44,241 nucleotides of DNA, taken from positions 1-44,241 of the forward strand of contig JAFUXE010000012.1 in NCBI GenBank assembly GCA_017477205.1, given 5' to 3'. The translations under genes and the position numbers were made by a program. Positions 30,775 through 44,241 of the stretch are shown in pieces. The first letter of the stretch is position 1. Each line of letters starts with the position of its first letter. The notes beneath the pieces are model-generated. The model was not told the DNA's origin. It saw only the letters and a list, made by a program, of their open reading frames with translations, and made no database searches. The stretch comes from Alloprevotella sp. Lineage in GTDB: Bacteria > Bacteroidota > Bacteroidia > Bacteroidales > Bacteroidaceae.

Positions 30775-30846
30775 ATATTGACTAAATTATAAATTGAAAG
30801 TTAAGAATTCATTGTTCATTATCCATTAAAAACCCGCCTCGCCTAT

Positions 30847-30893
30847 AAAAAAGAAGATAGAACGTGGGTGGAGGGAGGTGAGGAATTCTATCT
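30847..30893 (-). terminator. Probable intrinsic terminator of the serine palmitoyltransferase gene
   Basis: An 8-bp stem AGATAGAA/TTCTATCT (arms 30855-30862 and 30886-30893) has a long purine-rich interior. It is followed on the minus strand by TCTTTTTTATA. It lies about 75 bp past the stop of the 30966-32150 gene. Confidence 0.6.
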
Positions 30894-30965
30894 CCATAGA
30901 AGGGGAAGTGGCGGGGCGGGTGGGGGGAGTGTTATTCTTCTGTTCGTGTATCCTGTCCTGTTATT

Positions 30966-32150
30966 TTATATAATGTCAAGCTGCTTGAATACATGTTTCA
31001 GGGCATCAACGCTGCGGTCTATTTGCTCCTTCGTGTGCGTGGCCATCAGGGCGTAGCGCACCAGCGTGTCCTGTGCGGCGCAGGCGGGCGGGATGACGGG
31101 ATTGATGAAGACGCCTTCCTGGAAGGCCATTGCCGTCACCATGAACGTCTTCTCCACGTCGCGCACGTAGAGGGGGATGATGGGGCTCTCCGTGTCACCG
31201 ATTTCGAAACCCTCTTCGCGGAAGCGCTTCAGGGCGTAGTTTGTCACGTCCCAGAGAGCCTGGATGCGTTCCGGCTCCTGCTGGATGATGTGCAGAGCCT
31301 CCCGTGCGGATGCCGTTGCGGCAGGCGTTGCGCTGGCACTGAAGATGTAGGTGCGGGCGTGGTGCTTCAGGTAGTTGATGATGACCTTGTCAGCAGCGAT
31401 GAAGCCACCGATGCTTGCCAGGCTCTTCGAGAAGGTGCCCATGATGAGGTCCACCTCGTCCGTGAGGCCGAAATGGTCGCAGACGCCGCGTCCCTGACGC
31501 CCGAAGACACCGATGCCGTGCGCTTCGTCCACCATGACGGTGGCACCGTATTTTTTCTTCAGCTCAATAATCTTGGGCAGGTTCGCCAGGTCACCCTCCA
31601 TGGAGAACACGCCGTCCACGACGATGAGCTTCACGGTGCCCTCCTCGCACTTCTGGAGCTGGCGTTCGAGGTCCTCCATGTCGTTGTGGCGGAATTTCAG
31701 GTACTTGGCGTGTGCCAGGCGTCGTCCGTCCACGATGCTCGCGTGGTCGCGCTCGTCGCAAAGGACATAGTCGTTACGTGAGAGCAGCTGCGGGATGACG
31801 CCGCTGTTCACGGTGAATCCCGTGGAGAAGCAGAGCGCTTCGTCCTTGCCCACGAAGTCGGCCAGTTCGCGCTCCAGCTGCACGTGAATGTCAAGTGTTC
31901 CGTTGAGGAAGCGTGAACCCGCGCAGCCGCTGCCATATTGGCGCATGGCTTTGACGCCGGCCTCAATGACGCGTTCGTCTCCGGTGAGTCCAGTGTAGGC
32001 GTTTGAGGCAAACATGAGGACTTTGTGGCCTCCCATTTCCACCTCTGTCCCCTGTTTTCCTTCGATTTCACGGAAATAGGGGTAGATGCCTTTGGCCATG
32101 AATTCCTGCGGAATTGTGTATTTGGCCAATCTATCGTGTAGTACGTCCAT
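30966..32150 (-). CDS. spt: Serine palmitoyltransferase (alpha-oxoamine synthase family)
   Basis: A 394-residue PLP enzyme closely resembling the Bacteroides/Porphyromonas enzyme that condenses serine with an acyl-CoA to start sphingolipid synthesis. It has EGKQGTEVEMGGH, SNAYTGLTGDERV, the DEAHGIGVFG cofactor motif and the PLP-lysine motif GTFSKSLASIGGF. Related alpha-oxoamine synthases (KBL, BioF) are the main alternatives, but the sequence follows the Bacteroidetes Spt pattern along its length. A -7 box lies 73 bp upstream and a terminator downstream, so it is monocistronic. Confidence 0.88.
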   Translation of the reverse strand: MDVLHDRLAKYTIPQEFMAKGIYPYFREIEGKQGTEVEMGGHKVLMFASNAYTGLTGDERVIEAGVKAMRQYGSGCAGSRFLNGTLDIHVQLERELADFVGKDEALCFSTGFTVNSGVIPQLLSRNDYVLCDERDHASIVDGRRLAHAKYLKFRHNDMEDLERQLQKCEEGTVKLIVVDGVFSMEGDLANLPKIIELKKKYGATVMVDEAHGIGVFGRQGRGVCDHFGLTDEVDLIMGTFSKSLASIGGFIAADKVIINYLKHHARTYIFSASATPAATASAREALHIIQQEPERIQALWDVTNYALKRFREEGFEIGDTESPIIPLYVRDVEKTFMVTAMAFQEGVFINPVIPPACAAQDTLVRYALMATHTKEQIDRSVDALKHVFKQLDII

Positions 32151-32222
32151 AGTCTTTACTTATATGTGTCATTTTCAGCACCTCCAAGGTTGTGGGGTTG
32201 CTTTTTGTCACACAAATCGCGG

Positions 32223-32230
32223 CAAAGATA
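32223..32230 (-). promoter_or_regulatory. -7 box upstream of spt
   Basis: TATCTTTG on the minus strand would place the start near 32216 and give a leader of about 65 nt. No good -33 box is seen. Confidence 0.45.
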
Positions 32231-32436
32231 GGGATTTTCTGGAAAAGGGATGCATAAACGCACAAAAAATTCACATTTGCGCATCTTTTTTGCCCATTAT
32301 CGCCCAGTTCGTGCAGTCTTTTGTTTTGCGCTGAACTAACAAGATTCCGGCAATTCTGATAATTCCGACAATTATTCTAAACAACATTTTGCTTGTTGTC
32401 TCTTATGGTATGCCATATTTAGAAATGCTACATCTC
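32231..32436. other. AT-rich junction between core and accessory DNA
   Basis: No gene is seen here. The stretch holds 9-bp repeat units at 32344-32380 (ATTCCGGCA, ATTCTGATA, ATTCCGACA, ATTATTCTA) related to the core nonamer tracts. To the right, gene composition becomes markedly AT-richer. Confidence 0.5.
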
Positions 32437-33240
32437 TCAGTCAAACTTAATTTCCCTAATCAGCTCTATGTGATTGAATAAGTGCTTTCTTCCGTTCACT
32501 ACCACAGTGTCTTTTCGTTTCTTGCTAACACCATAAATGTTGTGTCCTTCCCATTTGATTGTGCCTTCCGGGTAGGGACAATCTATAGTTTTCTTCTTGT
32601 AGTCGAACTCCGGATAGTCTGTCATGCGGAAATCTGTTTTATAAGGTGCATAATCAATCAGTACAGGCTTATCCTCAACCATTCGATATATATCATATTC
32701 ATCATGGTTTTTCACAGCTATGCTATAATGCACAATCACCAATTCCTTTGTTCCGTCAAAATCCATGTCTTTAAAAAAGAAAGGAGTATCACTCAACATG
32801 TTTCCCCTATTGTCGTTTGTTGCATGATAATCAGTTTTAATTACCTTATATCGATATTTCTTCATGATGTTAGAATTTCTCCCATCATCCATCCCCCAGC
32901 CACCATGATTGAATGTGCTGTCTGCGAATGAAGTTGTGTGAAGTGTAAACGACTTTCCGTTCTTTGTAAAAGTAATATCCGCTTGATTTATATTATATTT
33001 ATCCGCCTTAATCACAGCTTTCGCATGGAACCCATTTACAGGTTGGCGATATACCACGGTAAAACTGTCTGTGCTCGTCTTTTCTTCTTCTATTATTATA
33101 GAATCGTTTTTTTCTATTATAGAATCGCTTTCTTCTGTTATTATAGAATCGCTCGTTTTGTCAGCAGGATCCATCTTCACCCGGTTGTCACATGATAACA
33201 ACGAGATTATGATGATGGAGCCAAATATTTTCATTCTCAT
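32437..33240 (-). CDS. Putative lipoprotein with DSII repeats
   Basis: A 267-residue protein of unknown family. A hydrophobic signal ends in a lipobox-like LLSC (MRMKIFGSIIIISLLSC). An acidic repeated linker follows, in which the unit DSII recurs three times (SDSIIT, SDSIIE, NDSIII). The mature domain contains DMDFDGTKELVI, a Ca-binding-loop-like motif seen in FG-GAP/VCBS-type surface proteins. I use the ATG at 33240, which has AAAGGG upstream. An ATG at 33270 overlaps the stop of the small fragment before it. Surface or periplasmic location is inferred. Confidence 0.65.
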   Translation of the reverse strand: MRMKIFGSIIIISLLSCDNRVKMDPADKTSDSIITEESDSIIEKNDSIIIEEEKTSTDSFTVVYRQPVNGFHAKAVIKADKYNINQADITFTKNGKSFTLHTTSFADSTFNHGGWGMDDGRNSNIMKKYRYKVIKTDYHATNDNRGNMLSDTPFFFKDMDFDGTKELVIVHYSIAVKNHDEYDIYRMVEDKPVLIDYAPYKTDFRMTDYPEFDYKKKTIDCPYPEGTIKWEGHNIYGVSKKRKDTVVVNGRKHLFNHIELIREIKFD

Positions 33241-33266
33241 TTCTATGCCCTTTCTTTTATTCTGTA

Positions 33267-33368
33267 TCATGTCGTTAGTAGTTTACGCCATATTTGTTGT
33301 GGATCCTTAAACTGAACCCGTGTCTGCTCAGCCGTGTCCTGTGCCCTCAGAACATCTTCTTTAGTCAT
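33267..33368 (-). pseudogene. 33-codon gene fragment, AlbA-like start
   Basis: A short frame begins MTKEDVLRAQDTAEQTRVQF and stops 34 codons later, overlapping the next possible start as ATGA. The leader and first codons (QKRYSDMTKEDV in the ATG frame) resemble those of the AlbA gene at 34378 and the ORF start at 43813. The TRVQFK segment is reminiscent of AlbA_2-domain N-termini. I read it as the truncated 5' end of an AlbA-type gene, though a small real peptide is not excluded. Confidence 0.4.
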
Positions 33369-33402
33369 ATCTGAATAGCGTTTTTGTTTCTTGTTATATT
33401 AT

Positions 33403-33756
33403 CTATTTGTCTCCTTTCTCAAACCTCTCACGCAGATACGGCGCCCAAAAACGACGATCTCGGGTAATCTTCCAGTCGTTCATTAACTCACCATTCTCAT
33501 ACAGTTCGAAACAAACATAATTATATTCTTTGTCGCCAAATTCTTGAAGAATAATCCTTGTCGAAGACTTGTAAACACCTATATGCGATACATGGTAAGT
33601 TCTGCCAATTTCCAGTTCTGGATATTCCTCATAAACCCATGATTCGGATATGTTACGCAGACACTTTGCTGTCAGAGAGTTCACCTCGTTGAAGTTCTCT
33701 TTGAAATAATTCTCTTTGCTTATTCCATATTTTCTAATGTACTCGTCATTCGTCAT
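33403..33756 (-). CDS. Hypothetical protein, 117 aa
   Basis: A small soluble protein with no signal or membrane segment. It starts MTNDEYIRKYGISKENYF. The middle (IGRTYHVSHIGVYKSSTRIIL, then YNYVCFELYENGEL) looks like an alternating beta fold, and the C-terminus is basic (RDRRFWAPYLRERFEKGDK). I do not recognise the family. It starts 25 bp after the AlbA-wHTH gene and is probably co-transcribed. An immunity or accessory role is only a guess. Confidence 0.6.
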   Translation of the reverse strand: MTNDEYIRKYGISKENYFKENFNEVNSLTAKCLRNISESWVYEEYPELEIGRTYHVSHIGVYKSSTRIILQEFGDKEYNYVCFELYENGELMNDWKITRDRRFWAPYLRERFEKGDK

Positions 33757-33781
33757 ATTTCATTACAAATTTCAACATAGA

Positions 33782-34378
33782 TTACTCTTCAATAACCTCC
33801 CAATAACCGCCATTGTCTGGCCCGACACGGCGGATGAGACCCTTTTCTTGCATTTGCTTCAACTGCCACTTAATGCCATCACTGGAAATACCGCAAAGTT
33901 CTGTAAGTTCTTTTCTTGTTACAGATGCATTCTCATGGATTGCTTTTAAGATAATCTGGGTAGTTTTCTGGGTAGTTTTCTGGGTAGTTTTCTCAGATAT
34001 TGCAACATGTGAGACTGAATGGGCGTTGCTCTCACCTTGTAGTTCATCCAATTTCTTCAAAGGTAGCACCAGTTCAACTTCATCTAGGTCCATCTTATTC
34101 TCCAGCACAGGTTCTCCCCAACCTGCTTCTTTCCAAGCAGCGACAATTTCCGGAAAGCCTATCTCAGCATCCTCCACACCATGAATCTCATAACGCTTGG
34201 CCAGATCTTTCTCCTTGCGATGTTCTTCCACACCAAGCAGAATGATTCCACCAATAGTGTTGGCAAATGCCGAATATGTATCCCAAACAGACTTTGGGAC
34301 ATCCTTCTCTGCCAGCTTTGCTTCCAAGGTAACTCTTTCACCTCTCAGCAACAATGCTTTTATTTCTTCGCTCGTCAT
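33782..34378 (-). CDS. Compact AlbA-like plus winged-helix protein
   Basis: A 198-residue protein. Residues 1-65 (GERVTLEAKLAEKDVPKSVW, AFANTIGGIILLGVEE) match the AlbA_2/Schlafen-type N-terminal domain of RecG-like or RNA-binding proteins. Residues ~130-142 hold three KTTQ units. The C-terminus (ASVTRKELTELCGISSDGIKW and LIRRVG) is a winged helix. Full-length relatives are usually 400-500 aa with a C-terminal ATP-binding-like region between these parts, and that part is missing. It is either a miniaturised regulator or an in-frame deletion product. The start context is repeated near two other genes here. Confidence 0.7.
   Translation of the reverse strand: MTSEEIKALLLRGERVTLEAKLAEKDVPKSVWDTYSAFANTIGGIILLGVEEHRKEKDLAKRYEIHGVEDAEIGFPEIVAAWKEAGWGEPVLENKMDLDEVELVLPLKKLDELQGESNAHSVSHVAISEKTTQKTTQKTTQIILKAIHENASVTRKELTELCGISSDGIKWQLKQMQEKGLIRRVGPDNGGYWEVIEE
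33960..33995 (-). repeat. 12-bp tandem repeat encoding KTTQ
   Basis: Three near-identical copies of TGGGTAGTTTTC (plus strand) encode KTTQKTTQKTTQ inside the AlbA-winged-helix protein. Such KTTQ runs are frequent in this family between the AlbA and winged-helix parts and may vary in copy number. Confidence 0.8.
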
Positions 34379-34405
34379 ATCTTTATAACGTTTTTGTTCC
34401 TTGAT

Positions 34406-36586
34406 CTATTGCCTCTTCAATTGTTCAATATATTTTAGTTCACCTTCAGCAAATTCTTTGCACAAAGGATCTTTAATCATTTCTCTTAGCAGTCGTTCTG
34501 CTTCTGATAGTTCCCCTTTATCAATTAGAATATAAGCTTTTCGCCTTTTGAGAAAAGCCATGTGATAATTCCAGTGATTTATTTTTTCTTCTGTTTCAGG
34601 CTTTGGTGAATGTTCTATTACTTCATTTACAACTTCCAATGCTTGAGGGTCCATCAAGTTAGCAAGACAATTGATATACTCTTGTATATGTTCGTATCCT
34701 TTATCATTACTTGCAATTTCAAGATAGTAAGCTGCAACTTGTGGCTTATCCAGTTCCATCATACAGAAGCCAATTCTGTAACTTGACTCGATGAAAATTT
34801 CCCAAAGTAGCGGATCGTCTTCTTCACTGAAATTAAGTCCCTTTTCGTCTTTAATTAGGTGTAAAGTGCAATCATACACCCATTTCGCCAACTTATAAGC
34901 TTCAATGAACTGCCTTTCCTTCTCTAAAACAATTGCTTTCTTTATGGCTTCAAGCAAATCCTCTTTACTAGTAGAATAATTGTAGCCCTTAGATAGGCCA
35001 ATACAGAATGTCGTATTTAACGGAGTGTTTATCTTCTCCCTCTGCCTCTTATCATCATCGTTCGCAAAATTGCAACGCATGATATCAACTCGCATGGCAG
35101 CAGCTGAATCTTTTGTTTTTATTGAATGAGTTGAAATGATAATGGGGGCATTAATACAGAGAATTGACACATCTTCTTTGTCATCTGTGTTATAGTACAC
35201 ATGTGTACACGATAGTACGAACACTTTATCTTTTGCCTGTTCAACATTCAAAGAATAATTCGTTATGGCTTCCTTATCCTCCATCTTGGTAAGGAATTGA
35301 TTGGTTGCCATGTCATAAATAAACATACAATTAGCCAGATTCTTTTGCTTGATTCCAAACAGCCTGTCAAGAACAAAGCCCAGCGATATAATACCATCAT
35401 AACGATGCGAAGACGCAAAATGGGCTTCTATCTCCTTTTTACTCTTGACAAGCGCAACAGGAACATCTACGCTAAATTGTTTGATTGCTTCACTCCAATT
35501 CTTGTGGTCTCCATATTTTTTAGCAACCATCATAAGCCAATTGTTCATCAACCACATTCCAGAGGGATCACCTAATCTTGCCTTGCAAAGTGCCAAGTTG
35601 TTTGGTTGTTCAAGGGTAAGTTTTGGAACACCTTGTTTATAATAATACGCTGCTTCATCCTCTCTACCCAACTTTGACAAACAAGCCCCTATCATATTGC
35701 ATGTTTCATAATAGGCTTCCATCCAACTTTCATCACATCTATTAAGATAGGGTTTCAAATAGTTATAGAATCGCTCCAAAGTAATATAACTATCGAAGAA
35801 TCGATTCTGCCCATATAGATATTTCCCATAGCCGTAATAGTAGTCCTGTCTAAATTCATCCATTCCATGGGTGTACTCTTCCTCAACTTCGTCTATTTCA
35901 TCAAACTTATCAAGCGATTTAAGCTTTTCTCTTGTGCTACTCTCAATCTTATCAAATAAATCCAGCTCTGGATTTTCCTCCATTTCACTATAAGACAGAA
36001 TAAAGCTAATAATTATCGGCTTGTTGTTCGACTTCAGCGAGATACAATCATCTGTCTCACTATTATCTGGCGACATTAAAGTGACTCGAAGATATTTGAG
36101 CGTGTCAATACCTCCAATACTTGTAATAGTCAAAATGTAATTCCTTTCTTTACATTTTACAACTAAGGTCGTCTCATGAAATAGTCCCTGAGTATAATGT
36201 CCATCCTCTGTCTTGTTTTTTAGGATATATGCAAAAAGGTCGTAATTCCAAATAGCATCTGTATCATAGAGAATAGTTTCATCAACAGATTTTTCTTTCG
36301 CATAATCAAGATGATACATGACAGCCATTGATTCTATTGACGTACCATCTATCTTGAACAGACCTGCGAGAATTTCACCAAGAGCTATTCTGTTCGTTTC
36401 AGTAGCTCTTCGAAAGACAATCTCTTGATGCCTGTACGCAGATTCCAAGTAAACCAAAACCTTCTTATGCATCACATCAAAATCAATGTAATGCTTGTCA
36501 TTTTCAGGATGTTCATCAGAAACAGTCTGATTAGATTGCTTAGAGTATCCCTCTTTCTTTCCAAATAGTTTTTTGAAGATTCCCAT
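34406..36586 (-). CDS. Large TPR-like protein of unknown function
   Basis: A 726-residue soluble protein. After a basic N-terminus (MGIFKKLFGKKEG) and an alpha/beta region come helical repeat segments. Examples are RFFDSYITLERFYNYL, MIGACLSKLGREDEAAYYYKQG and, near the end, RKAYILIDKGELSEAERLLREM. These have the A/G/Y spacing of tetratricopeptide repeats. The middle (about 390-560) looks globular. No catalytic motif was recognised. The start at 36586 avoids overlap with the upstream gene. With the two genes before it (37459 to 36607) it likely forms one transcript. Confidence 0.7.
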   Translation of the reverse strand: MGIFKKLFGKKEGYSKQSNQTVSDEHPENDKHYIDFDVMHKKVLVYLESAYRHQEIVFRRATETNRIALGEILAGLFKIDGTSIESMAVMYHLDYAKEKSVDETILYDTDAIWNYDLFAYILKNKTEDGHYTQGLFHETTLVVKCKERNYILTITSIGGIDTLKYLRVTLMSPDNSETDDCISLKSNNKPIIISFILSYSEMEENPELDLFDKIESSTREKLKSLDKFDEIDEVEEEYTHGMDEFRQDYYYGYGKYLYGQNRFFDSYITLERFYNYLKPYLNRCDESWMEAYYETCNMIGACLSKLGREDEAAYYYKQGVPKLTLEQPNNLALCKARLGDPSGMWLMNNWLMMVAKKYGDHKNWSEAIKQFSVDVPVALVKSKKEIEAHFASSHRYDGIISLGFVLDRLFGIKQKNLANCMFIYDMATNQFLTKMEDKEAITNYSLNVEQAKDKVFVLSCTHVYYNTDDKEDVSILCINAPIIISTHSIKTKDSAAAMRVDIMRCNFANDDDKRQREKINTPLNTTFCIGLSKGYNYSTSKEDLLEAIKKAIVLEKERQFIEAYKLAKWVYDCTLHLIKDEKGLNFSEEDDPLLWEIFIESSYRIGFCMMELDKPQVAAYYLEIASNDKGYEHIQEYINCLANLMDPQALEVVNEVIEHSPKPETEEKINHWNYHMAFLKRRKAYILIDKGELSEAERLLREMIKDPLCKEFAEGELKYIEQLKRQ

Positions 36587-36606
36587 AATCATTGTTTTTA
36601 TTCTCA

Positions 36607-37194
36607 TCAATACTCCCAATTCTCACTTGCCTTTTCCAATGACACAAATCGAGCACCATCCATTATACACGCGAATTCCATCTTGCCAGTTTGCTTCCCT
36701 TCTCTATTTACGTTCTCATAGAATTCAACCAATATCCTATATGGGGAATAGATAATAAATGCTCCCAATGTTGTATCATAAACACAATCATCTTTCTTAT
36801 TCTCTGGTGATGAAACAACGGATTCCAATCTCTCCCTGTCAGCTTTTCTTTTATCGTAGTTATTCCATCGCTTCATCTCTACAGCCAACAAGTTATTATC
36901 AGCGTTTCTTTTATGGACGATAAGATCACTTACCATAAGAAGTGACACTTTCTTATCACCTTCGGAATGTTTAATGGTTCCATCATTCTTGCGGTTATAT
37001 TCCACATCAGCGTAATAATCTTTATACTGATTACTCTCATGCATTATAATCTCCATGTGATGTGCTTGCCTTGCACAGATATTACGCTCAGACACTCCAA
37101 TACGGATGTTGTTGTAATCCATCTCATACAGCACGTGTAATGAAGAAATTAAGATGTCATTAATGATAATGCCCCTTTTTTCTTTATCTGTCAT
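36607..37194 (-). CDS. PD-(D/E)XK-like nuclease candidate
   Basis: A 195-residue protein with the order expected of small restriction-like folds. There is an N-terminal SERNICARQAHHM helix (possible Glu ligand at 36) and a VEYNRKNDG strand. Asp90 follows in MVSDLIVHKR, and then comes NLLAVEMKRW with Glu106 and Lys108 (E-x-K). These are the residues of a PD-(D/E)XK active site. Similar small proteins are found in bacterial accessory regions, usually without known function. It overlaps the upstream 91-aa gene by 11 bp, so the two are tightly coupled. Nuclease activity is inferred from motifs only. Confidence 0.65.
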   Translation of the reverse strand: MTDKEKRGIIINDILISSLHVLYEMDYNNIRIGVSERNICARQAHHMEIIMHESNQYKDYYADVEYNRKNDGTIKHSEGDKKVSLLMVSDLIVHKRNADNNLLAVEMKRWNNYDKRKADRERLESVVSSPENKKDDCVYDTTLGAFIIYSPYRILVEFYENVNREGKQTGKMEFACIMDGARFVSLEKASENWEY

Positions 37195-37459
37195 ATTCTT
37201 TAATTAATTTATCCAATATACCTAGGCATTCAGGTATGTCATCAGCATGTTGATAGTTTAGAGCATTTGCTCCAACTTCACGATAAAAAGAAGCCATAAT
37301 CTCTGTGGGAATCGTTTGAGAATAATCAGAAATAGCTTGTCTTGCTTCCCTTATATTCTTTTCACGTCTTCTACCATCTTTAGTGCGTTGTGCTAAATAA
37401 TAACTTGTGTATAAGTCTTCCAATTTGGACTTTATACTTAATAATAATTCTTTTGTCAT
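37184..37459 (-). CDS. Small helical protein, 91 aa, partner of the ExK protein
   Basis: A 91-residue charged, probably all-helical protein (MTKELLLSIKSKLEDLYTSY, then RREKNIREARQAISDYSQTI). No family was recognised. Its stop overlaps the start of the ExK-motif protein by 11 bp, and it is the first gene behind a consensus promoter at 37486-37517. A small protein upstream of a nuclease could be an inhibitor or a targeting subunit, but this is inference. Confidence 0.65.
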   Translation of the reverse strand: MTKELLLSIKSKLEDLYTSYYLAQRTKDGRRREKNIREARQAISDYSQTIPTEIMASFYREVGANALNYQHADDIPECLGILDKLIKEYDR

Positions 37460-37485
37460 ATGCTTATCTCTTAATTAATCGCCGT

Positions 37486-37517
37486 CAAAAATACAAAAGT
37501 ATTCTTGTTGTGCCAAA
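37486..37517 (-). promoter_or_regulatory. Promoter of the 91-aa/ExK/TPR operon
   Basis: On the minus strand, TTTG (37514-37517), a 20-bp gap and TATTTTTG (37486-37493). A second -7-like box, TACTTTTG, lies 2 bp upstream of it. The start is predicted near 37479, 20 nt before the ATG at 37459. It shows that this operon is transcribed independently of the LRR gene upstream. Confidence 0.75.
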
Positions 37518-37542
37518 CATCTTATTCTGGCTATTAGTCAAT

Positions 37543-38913
37543 CTAAACAAGTTCATAAGATGTATGTTCTTTCAGCTTGTCTTTATATTCAGGTAACAAT
37601 TCTTCAAATTTCTTTTTTGTACCATTGGGAATAAAAATACTCTCTATATTCGTGCAACCCGAAAAGACTTTCTCACCAAAGCGTATTACACTCCCATTAA
37701 AAGTGACCGAAGATAGTTCAACACACTCACTAAAAGCCATATAATCTACGAATTTAACACTTGGGGGAATAGTGATATGAGATAAGGTTTTACAACCGGA
37801 AAAAGTACATAAGCCTATCACTTCAACCCCTTTTGGAATATGGATTGATTCTAAATTATCACAATTATGAAAAGCGAAATCACAAATAGCCAATGTATCT
37901 TTATTTATAGTGTACTCTCTAATATCTTTTGGAAGAGCATATTCCTGATGTTTTTTATAATAGTCTTGGCGAAAGCATGCTCTTTGGATTGGGTCCTTTA
38001 TTACTTTGTCAAGTACGTCAAGATTATCCAAACTATACATGGAATCAAGCCACCTATCTGTATAGGAATAATCCTTTTGGAATTTAGGAGATACTAACAA
38101 GCGCTTTTTATCTTTGCTGTATTTTACTCCATATCCGTCAGTCCATGCATTGGCCAAATCATCCTCTGTAACCTCGGTGCTGAGATCCTCTCCATCCCGT
38201 TTTCTAAGATAGCTGTTTTTCTGTTCCTCAGACACCCATACATCATATCTGACAATGGGCTTTTGGCCAATCTTATGTAACTCTTGACCATATATAAGGT
38301 TAATCTTTATTTTGTCACCCTCCTCATAGCCTTTTAGAATACCTTTACCTGCCTTCAATTCTGTCTTAGTACCATCTTTAAAGGGGATGGCTATGCGAAG
38401 TGTTGATGACCCATCAGCGAACTCTATTCCAATAAGTTCCGCCTCATCCCCAAGGATGTCACCATAATTGAACATGCCAGTTTCGTCACAGATTTCTTTC
38501 AATGTGAAGGCATCGCCAACAGGTGTCCATTTATTGTAAGGAACCTCCTCTATAGAATTAATTATATTGACATTGTCTTCTGATGACATCTCTTCATTGT
38601 CTATAGGCATAACTGATGAGTAACCCTTTTTTACATCTTCACCAACAGATTCCGAATCGTCAACATTGTGGTCTGTTCCAACCTTACTATTATTTGATTT
38701 GTCTCGTGAATTACTTAGAGAGCCTTTTATAGCAATATAAGCAAAGTATAACACAATTAAGCCTACTATAAATAGGAAAGACCACAAATCGTCATCTACG
38801 CTATGATGACTACCTCCTCCATCAATGTCCCAGTGTGGTCGGACTTTACCCCTTTGAGCAAAAGTGACCATGTGAGACATTATTATGATTAATATGGAAA
38901 CAACTTTTTTCAT
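37543..38913 (-). CDS. Membrane-anchored leucine-rich-repeat protein (BspA-type)
   Basis: A 456-residue protein. A signal-like N-terminus (MKKVVSILIIIMSHMVTFAQ) is followed by a Gly/His stretch and a transmembrane helix (FLFIVGLIVLYFAYIAI, about 45-61). Then come a long soluble part and BspA/LRR_5-type repeats at about 345-435 (FAFHNCDNLESIHIPKGVEVI, FSGCKTLSHITIPPSV, FSECVELSSV, FSGCTNIESIFIPNG). If the signal is cleaved, the repeats face the cytoplasm; if it acts as a second helix, they are also cytoplasmic. The ATG at 38913 is preferred to a TTG at 38928 that overlaps the upstream gene. It begins 5 bp after the PrimPol-exonuclease stop and is probably coupled to it. Confidence 0.72.
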   Translation of the reverse strand: MKKVVSILIIIMSHMVTFAQRGKVRPHWDIDGGGSHHSVDDDLWSFLFIVGLIVLYFAYIAIKGSLSNSRDKSNNSKVGTDHNVDDSESVGEDVKKGYSSVMPIDNEEMSSEDNVNIINSIEEVPYNKWTPVGDAFTLKEICDETGMFNYGDILGDEAELIGIEFADGSSTLRIAIPFKDGTKTELKAGKGILKGYEEGDKIKINLIYGQELHKIGQKPIVRYDVWVSEEQKNSYLRKRDGEDLSTEVTEDDLANAWTDGYGVKYSKDKKRLLVSPKFQKDYSYTDRWLDSMYSLDNLDVLDKVIKDPIQRACFRQDYYKKHQEYALPKDIREYTINKDTLAICDFAFHNCDNLESIHIPKGVEVIGLCTFSGCKTLSHITIPPSVKFVDYMAFSECVELSSVTFNGSVIRFGEKVFSGCTNIESIFIPNGTKKKFEELLPEYKDKLKEHTSYELV

Positions 38914-38917
38914 AAAA

Positions 38918-41167
38918 TTATTCTTCAACTCTTGTTATATCATTACTCCCTTTACGACTTAAAGTTAACACCTTACCTGTTGATAAATCAAAGGTATCAC
39001 CCACGCTTAATCTGCTATTAATACTTAAGGGAATATGTGTCTGGCCTCCTGCTCTCATATAAAAGCAGACACTTTTGCCGTATTGAGAAGCAACAACTTC
39101 AGACTTACTAACAGCCTCCTGTTCTTCTTTAGTAAATGACCGTACTTGTCGTGTCTGCCATTTGTCTTTGCAATTATTTCGCCAGACAACATCATCTATA
39201 ACAAAAGAATCCGCTTCAAAATTTATTTGGGCGATTTTAATCTTTGAAATTGCAATGGCCTGGGTACAAATGAAAAAATACTCACATTGATTCAATCCAT
39301 ACAAATTCAATTTAGATGAAGATGAATCTTCAAGTTGTACTCCTTTGCTCGACAACTCTAATAGTAGCGGTATCTTTATTATTCGGTCTTTCATCAATAT
39401 GGCTTTAACAAGCCACATTTCATTACTCCTGTATACTTGCCATCTTTCCACACAAGACAATATATTGTCATTTAAAATGTTTGTTGCCTTGTATTTTAAG
39501 GTTATAATATTATCATAAGTTTTATCGGTAGGTTTGTACGTTATAACTTTTCTTTTTATTAGCTCAAAGAAGCATTTAGCAGTTGCTTCGATATCTGCAT
39601 TCGCATCATGTGCATTGTCGAATCTTTCATCAAATAGAAATTCATACAATTCTATAAGTTTGGGGAATTTATATTTGTACTCTCGTGGATGTCTTAGAGA
39701 ATACGATAAATATTGTGAGAAGTTTCTTATATATGCAGCCTCAGTAGGGAGTTTACAGTAATCCACAGATAGTCGCATAGTGCAGTAATATGGTATTTCA
39801 TGAATAGCGTTTGTGATATTAAGTCGTTTTAGTTCCCCTCTTAAAACTTGAATATCAAAGGACACATTATGACCAACTAATGCATTACAACTATTCAAGT
39901 CTGCAAGGAATAAGGATATTGCCTCTTTTATAAGGATGCCATCTCTCATCGCTTTCTCTTTTGTAATGCCATGCACTTTAACCGCTTCGTCGGAAATGTC
40001 AAAATCAACAGGTTTGATTAAACAGCCAAACCTTTTCTGAACATTCCCATCCTCATCAGCCACTATCCAGCTTAATTGAACGACTCTGGGTTGGTCCGTG
40101 ATGTCATGATAATATTTGGAAGGTAAGCCGTTTGTTTCTGTGTCAAAGAACATCAATCTATTAGACAGTCTACAATTTAGCTGAGCTAGCTTTTCTAACT
40201 TGTCATACCCATCAGCAGTAAGAATACCTTCTTCAAGTAGTTCTTTTAATTGCTTATTAACTTTCGTATAACTTGTCTCGATGTAGCCTACTGCCATAAG
40301 GCTGACCATATTAACTCTTGCATTGTTACATCTCGAACTCTTCAATAATACTAATGATAGCTCTTTATTTACAGCTAAGAAATTTTTGCCCTCATCACAT
40401 TGCATAAGCAATCCTCTGCAATCGTTATAACTAATATTTTGTGATGGATAGCCGTACCCCATCCCAAGTAAACATTCTCTACAGAACAGTTCATAATCAT
40501 TATTTTTGTATCTGTAACTATACAATCTATCATCAGCGCACCATTTAAAAAACATATTTGCTAAATTTTCGTTAGAAATATGATTTGGGGCTTTTTTAGG
40601 TAAATCCTCCCATTTCCAAAAACCATAGCTTTGTTTATTAGGATAGAGCAAACTACATGATGGAGGTAGAACTAAGAAATAATTCCATGAAAGTTCAATA
40701 CGGTCGAATGCGCGATATCGATTTCTTAAATAACCTTCCATGAAAGAGCCGGGAAGGAATGGATAATTCTCAACATCCATCTCAGGAATATCATCATTCT
40801 TAAAAATAATATGACATCCCGTTCCACTGCCACTTAATACTAACCACTCATAATTTATTGGTAGCCCAAGGTCTTCCAAGATAACTCCAAGAAATCTATT
40901 CTTGAAGAAAACTGTTAAGAAATCATCTTTAACGCCATCAATATCAATTGCCCTAAATCCATTATATCCAGTTATCAAACCAATCCCCGTAGCATCTGAC
41001 CAATTGAAAGACATAATATCTTCAATAGTCTGTCTTTCTTTATGCCATTTATCAATATCAATTCCGGGGTTCTTGAATGATGAGGGATCATCTTCACGCC
41101 CATAAATTGGAGCAATATTCATGCCCATAGAATGATAATACGTTGCTTGTAATTGAAGATCGTTCAT
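38918..41167 (-). CDS. PrimPol-DEDDh exonuclease fusion protein
   Basis: A 749-residue two-enzyme fusion. Residues 1-~210 match bifunctional primase-polymerase (archaeo-eukaryotic primase) domains. GIGLITGYNG precedes the metal motif DID (Asp75, Asp77), SGSGTGCH has His119, and RIEL leads into the characteristic WNYFLVLPPS at 161-170. A helical Cys-containing linker follows (to ~335). Residues ~338-540 form a DnaQ-like DEDDh 3'-5' exonuclease: FDTETNG (Asp342, Glu344), GHNVSFD (Asp438) and HDANAD (His520, Asp525). All five catalytic residues are present. The last 200 residues end in a small beta domain of unknown type. A plausible role is primer or DNA synthesis with built-in proofreading or end trimming. 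It precedes the LRR gene by 5 bp. Confidence 0.78.
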   Translation of the reverse strand: MNDLQLQATYYHSMGMNIAPIYGREDDPSSFKNPGIDIDKWHKERQTIEDIMSFNWSDATGIGLITGYNGFRAIDIDGVKDDFLTVFFKNRFLGVILEDLGLPINYEWLVLSGSGTGCHIIFKNDDIPEMDVENYPFLPGSFMEGYLRNRYRAFDRIELSWNYFLVLPPSCSLLYPNKQSYGFWKWEDLPKKAPNHISNENLANMFFKWCADDRLYSYRYKNNDYELFCRECLLGMGYGYPSQNISYNDCRGLLMQCDEGKNFLAVNKELSLVLLKSSRCNNARVNMVSLMAVGYIETSYTKVNKQLKELLEEGILTADGYDKLEKLAQLNCRLSNRLMFFDTETNGLPSKYYHDITDQPRVVQLSWIVADEDGNVQKRFGCLIKPVDFDISDEAVKVHGITKEKAMRDGILIKEAISLFLADLNSCNALVGHNVSFDIQVLRGELKRLNITNAIHEIPYYCTMRLSVDYCKLPTEAAYIRNFSQYLSYSLRHPREYKYKFPKLIELYEFLFDERFDNAHDANADIEATAKCFFELIKRKVITYKPTDKTYDNIITLKYKATNILNDNILSCVERWQVYRSNEMWLVKAILMKDRIIKIPLLLELSSKGVQLEDSSSSKLNLYGLNQCEYFFICTQAIAISKIKIAQINFEADSFVIDDVVWRNNCKDKWQTRQVRSFTKEEQEAVSKSEVVASQYGKSVCFYMRAGGQTHIPLSINSRLSVGDTFDLSTGKVLTLSRKGSNDITRVEE

Positions 41168-41174
41168 ATTGTTA

Positions 41175-41250
41175 ATACTTCTTTTTCGTTATACCCATCA
41201 ATTTCAGCGTGTCGTTTTGCAGCGCATACGTCTCGATGGTTTTTATTCCG
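41175..41250 (-). repeat. Direct repeat copy 1, 3'-gene-end remnant
   Basis: In one minus-strand frame this reads TIETYALQNDTLKLMGITKKKY and then stops, just before the PrimPol ATG. It is about 75-80% identical to 42482-42560. Both look like the last codons of a lost gene and they flank the DUF1016 gene. Confidence 0.6.
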
Positions 41251-41254
41251 CGCT

Positions 41255-42448
41255 TTATTCTTCCGTTATTAGTCGTTTCATGTCTTCCTCTGGCGGCAGC
41301 AGTTCACGCAGGCGGTTTTGCATCTGCTGATAGGTTGCCACGCCCATAGGCTTCAGGTAGTCTTGAAGGACATAGTCAACGTATGCTTTGTCGGCTTTCT
41401 TACAGAGTATGATTCCGACAGAAGGATTCTCACCCGGCAATTTCTCTTCATCGTCAAGAATACGAAGATAGGCTGCAAGTTGGCCAAGATAAGAGGGTTT
41501 GAACTGGCCCTTCTTCAGCTCTACTACCACCAAGGATTGCAGTTCGCGATTGAAGAACAGCAGGTCTATCCAATGGTCGTGGCCAAACTTGTCATAATGA
41601 ACCTGATGACCTTTGTAAGTGAACGACCGGCCAAAGGTCATGATGAAGTTCTTGATATTCATCACAATTTTACTCTCAATCACACTCTCATCGACGTCCA
41701 TCGGGTCTGAAGCGTCGATGTCTTCCACATTGATGTAGTCCAGCAGGTAGGAGTCCTTGAACATTTGTATCGTGCGCATTGCCAATGCTTTGTCGGGAAT
41801 CGTCTTGAAGAAATTGTTGGGCAAGGACGCCCGATGGTTATAGACGTGGGCCTTTATCATCTCTTCCAAGTCGTCCACCTTTAGTCGTTGGTTGTAGGCC
41901 AACTGAATATAGTATTTCCGCTCGTCGTATGTCTTTGCATAACGGAATATGGCCACATGGTGCGAGAACGAGATATTCAGAAAGGCTGTGATGGGGAAAG
42001 TATCATCAGTGGTGAGTTGCAACTGGCGAATTGCATCCGACTTGGAATCAACCATTTGTAATTCGGTAGACGCGTCTACCGAATTTTCAGTCATCTGTGG
42101 GACAGCGATTTGTGGTATTTCGGTAGTCCTGTCTACCGATTTAGCTTCAATATCTTTCCAAGCCTCATAAAGACGGCGCATCAGCTTGATGTTTTCCTCC
42201 GAAAAGCCTTTCAATCCTGGCAGTTCAGATTTCAGTTGTTTGCTGATTCTGGCAATGGCGCCCGTGCCCCAATAACCCTCTCGTGAATGTTCCGAGATAT
42301 AGCGACCAATGCCATAGTAGAGCGACAGTTGTTCGCCATTAATCATCTGGGCCGCACGAGCCTGACTCTGCAGGATAGCCGCCTTGATGGTCTTAACTGC
42401 ACTTTGCAGTTCTTGTGTTAACACTTTGCTATTACTTTTTTCTACCAT
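41255..42448 (-). CDS. DUF1016/YhcG-type PDDEXK nuclease-domain protein
   Basis: A 397-residue protein. The N-terminal DUF1016 domain (YYGIGRYISEHSREGYWGTG and LPGLKGFSEENIKLMRRLYE) is followed by a variable linker (about 102-140). The C-terminal PDDEXK domain has Asp295 in HDHWIDLLFFNRE, Glu310 and Lys312 in VVVELKKGQF, and YLGQLAAYLRIL. The family is linked to recombination, restriction and defence islands; biochemistry is sparse. The linker contains the duplicated segment SVD(R/A)(T/S)TE, whose DNA includes a 26-bp perfect palindrome. A TATATTTG box lies about 147 bp upstream, and the gene is bracketed by direct repeats. Confidence 0.88.
   Translation of the reverse strand: MVEKSNSKVLTQELQSAVKTIKAAILQSQARAAQMINGEQLSLYYGIGRYISEHSREGYWGTGAIARISKQLKSELPGLKGFSEENIKLMRRLYEAWKDIEAKSVDRTTEIPQIAVPQMTENSVDASTELQMVDSKSDAIRQLQLTTDDTFPITAFLNISFSHHVAIFRYAKTYDERKYYIQLAYNQRLKVDDLEEMIKAHVYNHRASLPNNFFKTIPDKALAMRTIQMFKDSYLLDYINVEDIDASDPMDVDESVIESKIVMNIKNFIMTFGRSFTYKGHQVHYDKFGHDHWIDLLFFNRELQSLVVVELKKGQFKPSYLGQLAAYLRILDDEEKLPGENPSVGIILCKKADKAYVDYVLQDYLKPMGVATYQQMQNRLRELLPPEEDMKRLITEE
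42060..42085. repeat. 26-bp perfect palindrome inside the DUF1016 gene
   Basis: AATTCGGTAGACG is followed immediately by its reverse complement. A second, imperfect copy (CGGTAG-TCCTGT-CTACCG, about 42121-42138) lies 36 bp to the right. Both sit in the linker between the two protein domains. Confidence 0.85.
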
Positions 42449-42481
42449 AGCCTTATGTAAAAATGTTCAGGTTTAAATTCA

Positions 42482-42560
42482 TTAATACCCCGGTTTCATT
42501 ATACCTACCATCTTCAGCGTATCGTTTTGGAGCGTATACGTCCCGATGGTTCCTGTTCCG
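42482..42560 (-). repeat. Direct repeat copy 2, 3'-gene-end remnant
   Basis: In one minus-strand frame this reads TIGTYTLQNDTLKMVGIMKPGY and then stops, about 35 bp before the DUF1016 ATG. It matches the copy at 41175-41250 in DNA and in frame. Confidence 0.6.
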
Positions 42561-42594
42561 CATTCCTTGGCCTGCCAAAAACGGAATTTGCTCG

Positions 42595-42602
42595 CAAATA
42601 TA
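42595..42602 (-). promoter_or_regulatory. -7 box upstream of the DUF1016 gene
   Basis: TATATTTG on the minus strand fits TAnnTTTG, with no clear -33 box. It would start a transcript near 42588 that reads through the remnant repeat into the DUF1016 gene. Confidence 0.4.
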
Positions 42603-42652
42603 CAAGGTTTTCCCGAAATAATAAAACATGGCGGGAATATACTCCATAGGGA

Positions 42653-43762
42653 TTATAAAAACATGGGGTACCATTCCCGATCCTTCAGGTGTTTTTCCCA
42701 CACCTTGTCAAAGCCGGGATATTCCAAAAGTGCTTTGTCCGAGCAGTCATCAGGTAGCATGCATTTATAAATCTCGTCATTGCTCATGCCCAGTCCCTGA
42801 TTTTGGTTTTTCACCTGAAACAGTTTTATGCGCTTCATTTGGTTTGTGCATTCATAATATACTTCTTTCTGCGCTTTTGGCAAATTCTGTGATAGCTTCC
42901 TTCGGCAACTCATCCAGTTTTCCCAGCATTTCTGCTCAGCACGAATAGCGCGCTGATATGCAGCCCCGTTTACCTCATCATCGTCTTTGCCTACGGCATT
43001 GATGAAGGCGAGATATGCATCGTTAATCATTTTATCGGTGAAACTTCGTGGGCTGCATTTCGTGTTCTTCCTTTTGTTCCGTCCCGTTGGTACCCCAAAC
43101 TCCAGAGTTTCTTGCGGGATTTGAGTAACCACGTATTCCGTTTGTTCGTCTGCCAGAATATCCAGGAACATTTTCACCCTCGCAAAATATTCGCGGACGG
43201 AGGTAAGACAGGCCCGCCCAGACTTGGGCATCTGAGCATTGTATGCCTGAATGTTCTCCACATCCAGTCCCAGATGCTCTGTCTGGTAGATGGCCCGCTC
43301 GTTATGGAACTTCTGGGAGATAATCGTAAAGCTCTTCAGTCCAAACACTTTGTTGGCATTCACCACAGAGCAGATCGTCCTGTAGCCCTTACCGTCAAGA
43401 ATAATTGCATCGGCAGGAACTCCCCTTGCTACAAGAGAATCCCTCATGCTCTCCGGTTCATTCACCCCATCCAAACTATGCTCGTCTCCGCTAATCAGAA
43501 TCTTCTCAATCTTACCAGCCTTATACAACAGCTCTGCTGCATCGATGCGATAGACGAAGAAGTAGTTCCTGCCGCCATCGCGGGCCTGTGGCGTAGTACC
43601 AAGCAGCAGCCCCACTTCACTATATTTAATGCTGTCGATGTCAGAGAATACTTTGCCTTTGGCGTTGCTGACCACAAGTTGGTTGCATACCATCAAGATG
43701 GTTATACAAAGTAAAGCCAAGATACCTGCCGTCCATGCGGTTATTTTTACGGATTTCTTCAT
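42653..43762 (-). CDS. sanA: SanA-like DUF218 membrane protein with C-terminal extension
   Basis: A 369-residue protein. An N-terminal membrane helix (WTAGILALLCITILMVCNQ) precedes a DUF218/SanA domain. Family motifs include GLLLGTTPQARDGG, YRIDAAELLYKAGKI, ILISGDEHSL, RGVPADAIILD and TIISQKFHNERA. SanA proteins affect envelope permeability and act at the inner membrane. The usual length is about 210-240 aa. Here about 150 residues are added, including an AEQKCWENWMSCRRKL and YYECTNQMKRIKL segment with Cys/Trp spacing that weakly recalls LprI/DUF1311. I prefer MKKSVKITAW at 43762. A longer start at 43813 would use an N-terminus (MTSGEILKEKG) shared with the AlbA gene. Confidence 0.82.
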   Translation of the reverse strand: MKKSVKITAWTAGILALLCITILMVCNQLVVSNAKGKVFSDIDSIKYSEVGLLLGTTPQARDGGRNYFFVYRIDAAELLYKAGKIEKILISGDEHSLDGVNEPESMRDSLVARGVPADAIILDGKGYRTICSVVNANKVFGLKSFTIISQKFHNERAIYQTEHLGLDVENIQAYNAQMPKSGRACLTSVREYFARVKMFLDILADEQTEYVVTQIPQETLEFGVPTGRNKRKNTKCSPRSFTDKMINDAYLAFINAVGKDDDEVNGAAYQRAIRAEQKCWENWMSCRRKLSQNLPKAQKEVYYECTNQMKRIKLFQVKNQNQGLGMSNDEIYKCMLPDDCSDKALLEYPGFDKVWEKHLKDREWYPMFL

Positions 43763-43790
43763 TTTCGTTTTCCTTTGCTTACCTTTTTCC

Positions 43791-43960
43791 TTAAGAATCT
43801 CTCCACTCGTCATATCTTTGTAACGTTTTTGCTCGTTGCTTTATTGTCGCATCAACCTTTTCACTCAGCCTTTAGCCAGCCTCTTAGGTTCCTTCCATCC
43901 AGCTTTCTGCCTTACTCTTGGCATACTCATGAGTAAGGGTAGAAGCAGTGTAGAGTATGG
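43791..43960 (-). pseudogene. Decayed reading frame upstream of the SanA-like gene
   Basis: One minus-strand frame reads LYTASTLTHEYAKSKAESWM up to a stop, then a short run, another stop, and then RLSEKVDATIKQRAKTLQRY to a final stop. Composition is protein-like but two internal stops interrupt it. I cannot name the family. It overlaps the shared gene-start repeat near 43813 in a different frame. Confidence 0.4.
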
Positions 43961-44122
43961 CTACACCTTGGGAGGAATATGCAAGCACCTCACCGTTCCA
44001 GGCTCCATGCTGTCAAGCAGTCCGCTCTCTATCAGCGTGTAAGCCTTCTTCTTGCTCTGCCCATCGATGCTGTTGTCGCTATAGGTGAACCATTCAAGGA
44101 ACTTGTTGGTTGAATTAACTAA
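43961..44122 (-). pseudogene. Fic-family protein fragment
   Basis: The minus-strand frame reads NSTNKFLEWFTYSDNSIDGQ, then SKKKAYTLIESGLLDSMEPG and TVRCLHIPPKV before a stop. The first part matches N-termini of Fic/cell-filamentation-type proteins. The protein then departs from the family (expected LQQIHKYLF-like sequence) and lacks the Fic catalytic motif entirely. Upstream there is no start codon before a stop. It is a truncated remnant, apparently cut at its 5' side near the AT-rich start of the next element. Confidence 0.65.
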
Positions 44123-44145
44123 GTTTTTTGTTTATGTTAAAAAAG

Positions 44146-44176
44146 TTGCACATGTCACAGATTTTCAGTAACTTTG
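44146..44176 (+). promoter_or_regulatory. Promoter at the right edge
   Basis: TTG (44146-44148), a 20-bp gap and TAACTTTG (44169-44176) match the Bacteroidetes consensus. The predicted start near 44183 leaves a leader of about 30 nt before the ATG at 44212. Confidence 0.7.
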
Positions 44177-44211
44177 TAGTGTCCAAGCTATTAAGTACTA
44201 TCATCATAGCC

Positions 44212-44241
44212 ATGCACAACTTCTCTGCAAAGTTCCGTAAA
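44212..44241 (+). CDS. Start of a gene running off the window, possibly a transposase
   Basis: Only ten codons are visible (MHNFSAKFRK). They sit behind a consensus promoter and oppose the broken Fic fragment. The basic, aromatic N-terminus and the position next to a truncated gene would fit an insertion-sequence transposase (IS982-like N-termini look similar), but ten residues are not enough for an assignment. Confidence 0.4.
   Translation, partial: MHNFSAKFRK

Follow-up and report, generated by a model that had tools for sequence, protein, structure and literature searches.

A conserved fusion of a PrimPol domain with a predicted DEDDh exonuclease, found sporadically in Bacteroidota

The presence of a primase-polymerase (PrimPol) and a DEDDh exonuclease in one predicted polypeptide raises the question of whether the fusion is genuine and what such an enzyme could do. 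The gene lies in a 44,241-nucleotide stretch of an Alloprevotella sp. contig (JAFUXE010000012.1), hereafter the window, and a first-pass annotation of its sequence had proposed a self-proofreading or primer-trimming enzyme. Two Pfam profiles, from a public library independent of our family alignment, matched the 749-amino-acid protein above their respective cut-offs (Prim-Pol at residues 10-186, RNase_T at residues 340-533). A multiple alignment of 53 family members revealed that D75, D77, H119, E158 and L167-S170 on the PrimPol side, and D342, E344, D438, H520 and D525 on the exonuclease side, are conserved at 90% or more, so that the active-site positions given in the first-pass annotation are exact. 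Given the Pfam matches, the two folds described below and the completeness of both sites, the fusion is real. The features of the locus are listed in Table 1.

Table 1. Features of the PrimPol-DEDDh locus and its neighbours (window positions)
Feature	Position	Strand	Basis
PrimPol-DEDDh gene, 749 aa	38918..41167	(-)	ORF; Pfam PF09250 and PF00929, both above cut-off
PrimPol (AEP) domain, residues 1-230	40478..41167	(-)	Pfam match, AF2 model, conserved residues
PrimPol site codons	D75/D77 40937-40945; H119 40811-40813; E158 40694-40696	(-)	
Linker, residues 231-334, mainly helical	40166..40477	(-)	AF2 helices
DEDDh exonuclease domain, residues 335-547	39527..40165	(-)	
Exonuclease site codons	D342 40142-40144; E344 40136-40138; D438 39854-39856	(-)	
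Exonuclease site codons	H520 39608-39610; D525 39593-39595	(-)	
C-terminal region, residues 548-749	38921..39526	(-)	pLDDT mostly low
LRR gene: N-terminal hydrophobic segments (own reading), then BspA-type LRR	37543..38913	(-)	LRR_5 E 7e-24
YhcG/DUF1016 PDDEXK nuclease	41255..42448	(-)	PF06250 E 8.7e-40; PADLOC candidate PDC-S02 E 6.3e-105
195-aa gene (context)	36607..37194	(-)	Weak PD-Lambda-3_A similarity, PADLOC E 1.3e-6
AlbA_2 + winged HTH protein (context)	33782..34378	(-)	PF04326 E 3.5e-6, PF13412 E 5.1e-9

The PF09250 profile scored 27.7 bits on the protein, against a curated cut-off of 22.8. Because PDB comparisons with the whole model were filled by exonucleases, the PrimPol domain was folded separately, and the best PDB match of the AF2 model of residues 1-229 was pRN1 ORF904 (1rni, E 4.5e-8), as expected if the N-terminal ~210 residues adopt an AEP fold. 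PDB ranks 1-11 were all PrimPol entries, eight of them at E ≤0.001, and the CRISPR-associated Prim-Pol (CAPP) structure 7nqd was a weak match (E 2.4e-2). The conserved D,D,H,E set corresponds to a DxD motif, a His and an acidic third metal ligand; we take D75, D77, H119 and E158 to be the metal ligands, with E158, within IELSW, likely the third one. By profile, site residues and modelled fold, the protein is a member of the Prim-Pol/AEP superfamily, with predicted priming or polymerase activity.

The exonuclease part is closest in fold to DnaQ, and its five catalytic residues are correctly placed within that fold. These residues and the modelled fold identify a DEDDh exonuclease, for which 3'-5' activity is predicted. 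It scores below the Pol III epsilon equivalog cut-off of NCBIfam (best 48.8 bits for a cut-off of 236), and all 20 NCBIfam models matched scored far below their cut-offs. PADLOC models matching this part were DEDDh (E 2.2e-23), the candidate PDC-S48 (E 3.4e-16) and, more weakly, Effector and Cas7; PADLOC reported no named complete defence system at the gene. In P0066, P0070, P0071 and P0076-P0081, the relative of the exonuclease is the N-terminus of PHP-domain proteins, some with PolIII alpha. As for the remaining regions, the linker is weakly Sel1-like in some relatives (Sel1 just below the Pfam cut-off in P0021 and P0053), and a homology search with the C-terminal region returned the protein itself and P0015.

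Protein searches retrieved at least 86 proteins with the window protein (among the 7995 candidates sharing most words) and 134 with a short prophage form, of which the best 120 were used. This gave 204 distinct proteins including both queries; the PrimPol model matched 182 of them, the exonuclease model 189, and 167 were matched by both. As 25 members of this set had served to build the models, the counts describe the retrieved set rather than a random sample. The PrimPol precedes the exonuclease in 167/167, so that the architecture, in the order first described, recurs in other proteins. D,D,H,E was read in 152/167, D,E,D,H,D in 153/167 and both sites intact in 143/167, D at the E158 position being counted as intact; 11 proteins keep the PrimPol site with an incomplete exonuclease site and 10 show the reverse, several of these 21 having gaps as in fragments. 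Two forms recur, a short one of ~420-480 amino acids and a longer one with linker and additions. Among the 86 relatives of the window protein, the additions are LRR_5 (PF13306; 21 proteins, 17 with both PrimPol and exonuclease domains), FGE-sulfatase (5) and Sel1 (5), while relatives of the short form add Fib_succ_major and TPR, and also ExoX-like_C where the exonuclease model found no match. The FGE tails could have been targets of a diversity-generating retroelement (DGR); we rejected this reading, RVT_1 being detected in neither of two genomes (G002, G082) and in 3/14 control genomes, and the 181-base 3' end in G002 matching itself plus stretches of 39 and 42 bases (82 and 76%) instead of a template repeat. 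Public names of members include 'bifunctional DNA primase/polymerase', 'DNA polymerase III epsilon subunit-like protein' and 'hypothetical protein'.

The usual state of PrimPols, alone or fused to a helicase, fits other relatives: P0084 carries PriCT-2 in our Pfam scan, as do P0085-P0086 in a precomputed list, and no exonuclease match was obtained at a further 16 PrimPol loci of Bacteroidota (L205-L220), whose open frames measure 699-813 amino acids, 680-704 of them covered by the loci. P0083 has a PLD nuclease domain, DrmC- and MkoB-like by PADLOC, joined straight to its PrimPol, and no exonuclease match was found in it.

G002 and G082 carry the gene at the same chromosomal place, and this synteny indicates vertical inheritance. 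Between these genomes, dN/dS values, with dS near saturation, were 0.089/1.715 for the PrimPol, 0.092/1.397 for the linker, 0.162/1.504 for the DEDDh domain, 0.564/0.761 for the tail and 0.226/1.012 for FGE; the yardstick was a set of five flanking genes (0.127/3.981, 0.031/0.518, 0.062/0.662, 0.269/1.038 and 0.172/0.856). As judged from these substitution rates, the PrimPol-DEDDh pair is under purifying selection. Ten loci combine DNA context with both parts (the window, L001, L002, L003, L195, L196, L197, L198, L222 and L225). Both sites are intact in six; in L195, L198 and L222 D,D,H,E is retained and exonuclease residues are lost, and L003 (genome G003) has E,D,V,I where D,D,H,E is expected, its exonuclease being intact.

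A tree was built from 129 exonuclease domains (265 before thinning), and the PrimPol-exonuclease proteins do not form one clade in it: 12 label changes were counted, at least five of them forced by well-supported branches. Its bootstrap is unsettled, and L195 and L198 are very long branches. Six proteins without significant PrimPol match (P0059, P0061, P0062, P0063, P0065 and P0068) are nested among the fused ones, which points to repeated loss, replacement or gain of the PrimPol. This history argues against an obligate proofreading pair but not against trimming. Thus, of the enzyme proposed in the first-pass annotation, the two folds, the sites and the fusion stand, while a strict proofreading pair is disfavoured by the one-site losses and the nested PrimPol-less exonucleases. 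These six proteins have N-terminal LRR, Sel1 or weak WG matches in the PrimPol's stead. Shuffling of cassettes, at first read from P0059 and P0022, was rejected as a general feature: among close pairs, defined by near-identical exonuclease domains, only 3/140 had unrelated N-termini, all involving P0059.

The family is sporadic in Bacteroidota. In partly overlapping genome samples, both parts were found at one place in at least 5/393 genomes of the Parabacteroides order (G001, G002, G082, G333 and G356; a lower bound, at most three candidates being scored per genome), in 2/395 of a phylum sample (G001, G486), in 1/397 of the family of G003 (G003 itself), in 1/296 (G1590) of the order to which the Chryseobacterium genome G1176 belongs, a sample that also yielded a PrimPol-only gene in G1520, and in 0/291 of the order of the Hymenobacter genome G1175, a sample without positive control. 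Genome contigs gave no match in a single-protein search and at least 228 relatives in an alignment search, with both domains in three of the best 80 loci (L001-L003). The same alignment retrieved at least 95 relatives in a viral scan, with a PrimPol in none of the best 80 loci; the PrimPol alignment gave one distant viral match (a 186-amino-acid ORF), and no phage record covers 80% of the window protein or of the short prophage form. One of eight matching plasmid records matched over the PrimPol part, the exonuclease of that member being decayed, and a DNA search of the core against plasmids yielded only the proximity of the window to Bacteroidales-type ffh/folD DNA.

In the window, the ATG of the LRR gene lies 4 nt past the PrimPol-DEDDh stop, in the same direction (the automatic ORF start was a TTG at 38928); since relatives have LRR fused to the PrimPol-DEDDh core, its product is a possible partner. 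The co-directional YhcG gene, 87 nt upstream, is a context gene, and the AlbA_2-HTH gene is farther downstream than the LRR gene. The 195-amino-acid gene overlaps both a 91-amino-acid gene (37184-37459) and a 737-amino-acid gene (34406-36619), with gaps of -11 and -13; TPR matches in the 737-amino-acid protein are below the Pfam cut-off. A Pfam scan of the protein and nine neighbouring proteins detected neither a helicase nor a PriCT or Rep domain, in agreement with the non-plasmid setting noted at first.

Among the other loci, L197 is a three-gene cassette in which each gene overlaps the next by 4 bp, antisense to surrounding prophage genes (head maturation protease phrog_53, E 1.5e-46). It encodes a PLD nuclease (DrmC-like, E 8.5e-7; PLDc_2) with a weak J-like region (DnaJ E 0.068), the PrimPol-DEDDh protein and a 294-amino-acid protein with no Pfam match and, in our reading, a HEPN-like RNNLYH motif; the prophage itself encodes a primase-like protein (phrog_6088, E 8.4e-4), on the opposite strand. 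L222 adjoins a type I restriction enzyme, IetS, IetA and an Orf5/HEC-06 gene, L195, on plasmid pHsw1, is flanked by an ATPase/helicase (TmtA- and MkoA-like parts) and a DinG-like helicase, and in L198 HEPN_LA2681 is the second gene downstream. By our reading, five of the ten loci (in genomes G001, G002, G003, G082 and G1590) are mostly amid housekeeping genes, namely L002, L196, L225 and L003 as well as L001, which lies among core genes near nucleotidyltransferase/HEPN-like pairs. Clear defence-like neighbours are found at four loci, and L197 is the one among these that keeps both sites intact; in the window both are intact and the neighbours are less clearly defence-like.

The folds, the complete sites, the conservation of the pair and the purifying selection on it are established. 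For its function we propose, with a probability of roughly 0.45, a prime-and-trim enzyme acting on DNA 3' ends within accessory, probably anti-mobile-element, modules. The ORF904-like PrimPol would start or extend a DNA strand that the DnaQ-like 3'-5' exonuclease of the same chain would shorten, and both sites would be active on the same 3' end. The enzyme would serve accessory anti-mobile-element modules, and repeat modules (LRR, FGE, TPR/Sel1, Fib_succ_major), whether attached or encoded nearby, could determine its trigger or target, a role that in the window may fall to the LRR gene as recognition module. In favour of this reading are the attached modules, the settings of L197, L222, L195 and L198, the PLD fusion of P0083 and the PDC-S48 match; against it are the five loci amid housekeeping genes, the vertical inheritance in G002 and G082, the loss of one site at three of the four loci with defence-like neighbours, the lack of a named complete PADLOC system at the gene, a PLD partnership that is not conserved and the rarity of near-identical exonuclease domains on unrelated N-termini. 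A bolder version, which we hold to be rather unlikely, would see a Bacteroidota-wide modular immune enzyme whose core writes, then erases DNA on invading or damaged templates, with these modules as triggers in cis or from an adjacent gene. In one lineage the trigger would come through a PLD/J-domain-like partner, a kind of protein whose partners at other loci are beta-propeller, TPR or Fib_succ_major proteins.

A host repair polymerase, in which the PrimPol would reprime or bypass lesions and the DEDDh domain clear the 3' end of mismatched or excess nucleotides, in the way epsilon serves Pol III, would explain the 143/167 proteins with both sites intact, a PrimPol better conserved than any other part in the G002-G082 comparison, the stable chromosomal synteny, the DnaQ-like fold and the exonuclease relatives at the N-termini of PHP/PolIII-alpha-like proteins (P0066, P0071). 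We nevertheless find it doubtful, as members with one dead site persist at 4/10 loci, PrimPol-less exonucleases nest within the family, its occurrence is sporadic (at least 5/393 Parabacteroides-order genomes), and the repeat modules are variable and the settings partly defence-like. The loss of the PrimPol ligands in L003, together with PrimPol-free exonuclease relatives carrying LRR, Sel1 or weak WG matches, would suit a PrimPol that is mainly a nucleic-acid sensor or clamp, with the exonuclease as sole effector; this appears improbable given D,D,H,E in 152/167, a PrimPol more conserved than the exonuclease between G002 and G082, and three loci that keep the PrimPol and lose the exonuclease. 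Quite improbable, finally, is a replication initiator of mobile elements like other PF09250 PrimPols: relatives with PriCT-2 (P0084-P0086), the prophage copy of L197 and the pHsw1 copy of L195 with its adjacent helicase gene point that way, but helicase, PriCT and Rep are absent from the protein and the nine neighbours scanned, the L197 prophage has a separate primase-like gene, the fusion occurs in none of the best 80 of at least 95 viral relatives, and neither query is covered to 80% by any phage record.

The prime-and-trim reading can be set against known systems. ORF904 is a plasmid replication protein with a helicase part; as a PF09250-type PrimPol it has the AEP fold, DxD, His, acidic third ligand and LPPS in common with the query, which instead has an exonuclease after the PrimPol and no helicase among the neighbours scanned. 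The exonuclease domains of DnaQ/Pol III epsilon, PolC and DinG act with C-family polymerases or are fused to a helicase, whereas the partner of the query's exonuclease is a PrimPol. Bacterial LigD combines an AEP polymerase, a 3' phosphoesterase and a ligase in one chain. It resembles the query in principle, as an AEP polymerase with a 3'-end-processing nuclease; its nuclease family differs from DEDDh, and Pfam found no ligase or Ku domain in the query and its nine neighbours. WP_044000439.1 of Hymenobacter swuensis pHsw1 ('bifunctional DNA primase/polymerase') is a family member with PrimPol and exonuclease-like parts, but its exonuclease site is lost and its gene lies between ATPase/helicase and DinG-like genes. 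To our knowledge, no AEP enzyme has a proofreading exonuclease in cis.

Rep, related to ORF904, is an AEP fused to a putative helicase (PMC4538821), and AEPs fused to helicases, PriCT and HTH are reported (PMC5862659); the word 'exonuclease' occurs in neither text. CAPPs place a PrimPol in immunity, with a Bacteroidetes clade (PMC8211822), and are similar to the query in AEP fold. Unlike them, the query has no repeat array within 30800-44241 and no clear Cas gene among nine neighbours (Pfam) or six (PADLOC), Csa3/CARF matches being weak (E 1e-4 or worse) and confined to the HTH part of 33782-34378; a CRISPR-linked reading was therefore dropped. FGS/repeat-module conflict systems join variable superstructure-forming and FGS modules to effectors (eLife 2020, PMC7159879), a likeness to the variable modules of the PrimPol-DEDDh family, but 'primase', 'exonuclease' and 'DnaQ' are absent from that main text. 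We recognised no account of a PrimPol-DEDDh fusion among the matches listed in the open-licence literature (titles and abstract starts), which is weak evidence of absence.

The domains are known and the conserved architecture is new; both parent enzyme families being known, the novelty lies in the architecture and the family, not in the chemistry. A conserved DnaQ-type exonuclease in cis makes editing or trimming of PrimPol products directly testable. A role for the family in conflicts involving phages and other mobile DNA is possible, and, if the anti-mobile-element reading is true, a primase-polymerase with its own eraser would join the DNA-synthesising immune enzymes.

Several minor observations were made along the way. 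Full-length relatives of the PLD/J-like gene (L197 8980-10356, minus strand) occur in G110 and G144, at 51 and 44%. The relatives in G119, G1702, G043 and G066 are partial and match the J-like half, two further short matches cover the PLD part, and a viral scan with the gene's product gave two loci. Neither PrimPol nor exonuclease was found beside its relatives at six further loci (L238-L243), so that the PLD partnership is not conserved. The partners there are Fib_succ_major in L238, where an LRR_4-like gene (match below cut-off) lies to the opposite side, TPR in L239 and beta-propellers in L240 and L241 (Pfam) and in L242 and L243 (by eye). With such exchangeable neighbours, PrimPol-DEDDh among them, the PLD/J-like proteins look like a modular system. 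A short N-terminal motif of the type GNxIKITDKxL, which we treat as a lead, is common to the L238-L242 partners, the L197 PrimPol-DEDDh protein and P0088-P0092, and absent from L243; a pattern drawn up post hoc matched 9/2947 ORFs, seven being PrimPol-DEDDh proteins or such partners. In G1520 (L226 6364-9553), a PrimPol-only gene of 249 amino acids adjoins a P-loop-like gene (own reading), a DUF285 repeat protein and a gene with weak similarity to the EcoO109I nuclease. In the window, a small protein (33403-33756) resembles by eye the N-terminus of the L003 11632-12780 product, whose gene directly follows PrimPol-DEDDh in L003. Finally, a 59-nt repeat at 33352-33410, 34362-34420 and 43797-43855 (copies 71 and 81% like the reference) spans the starts of two minus-strand ORFs, the third copy lying elsewhere.
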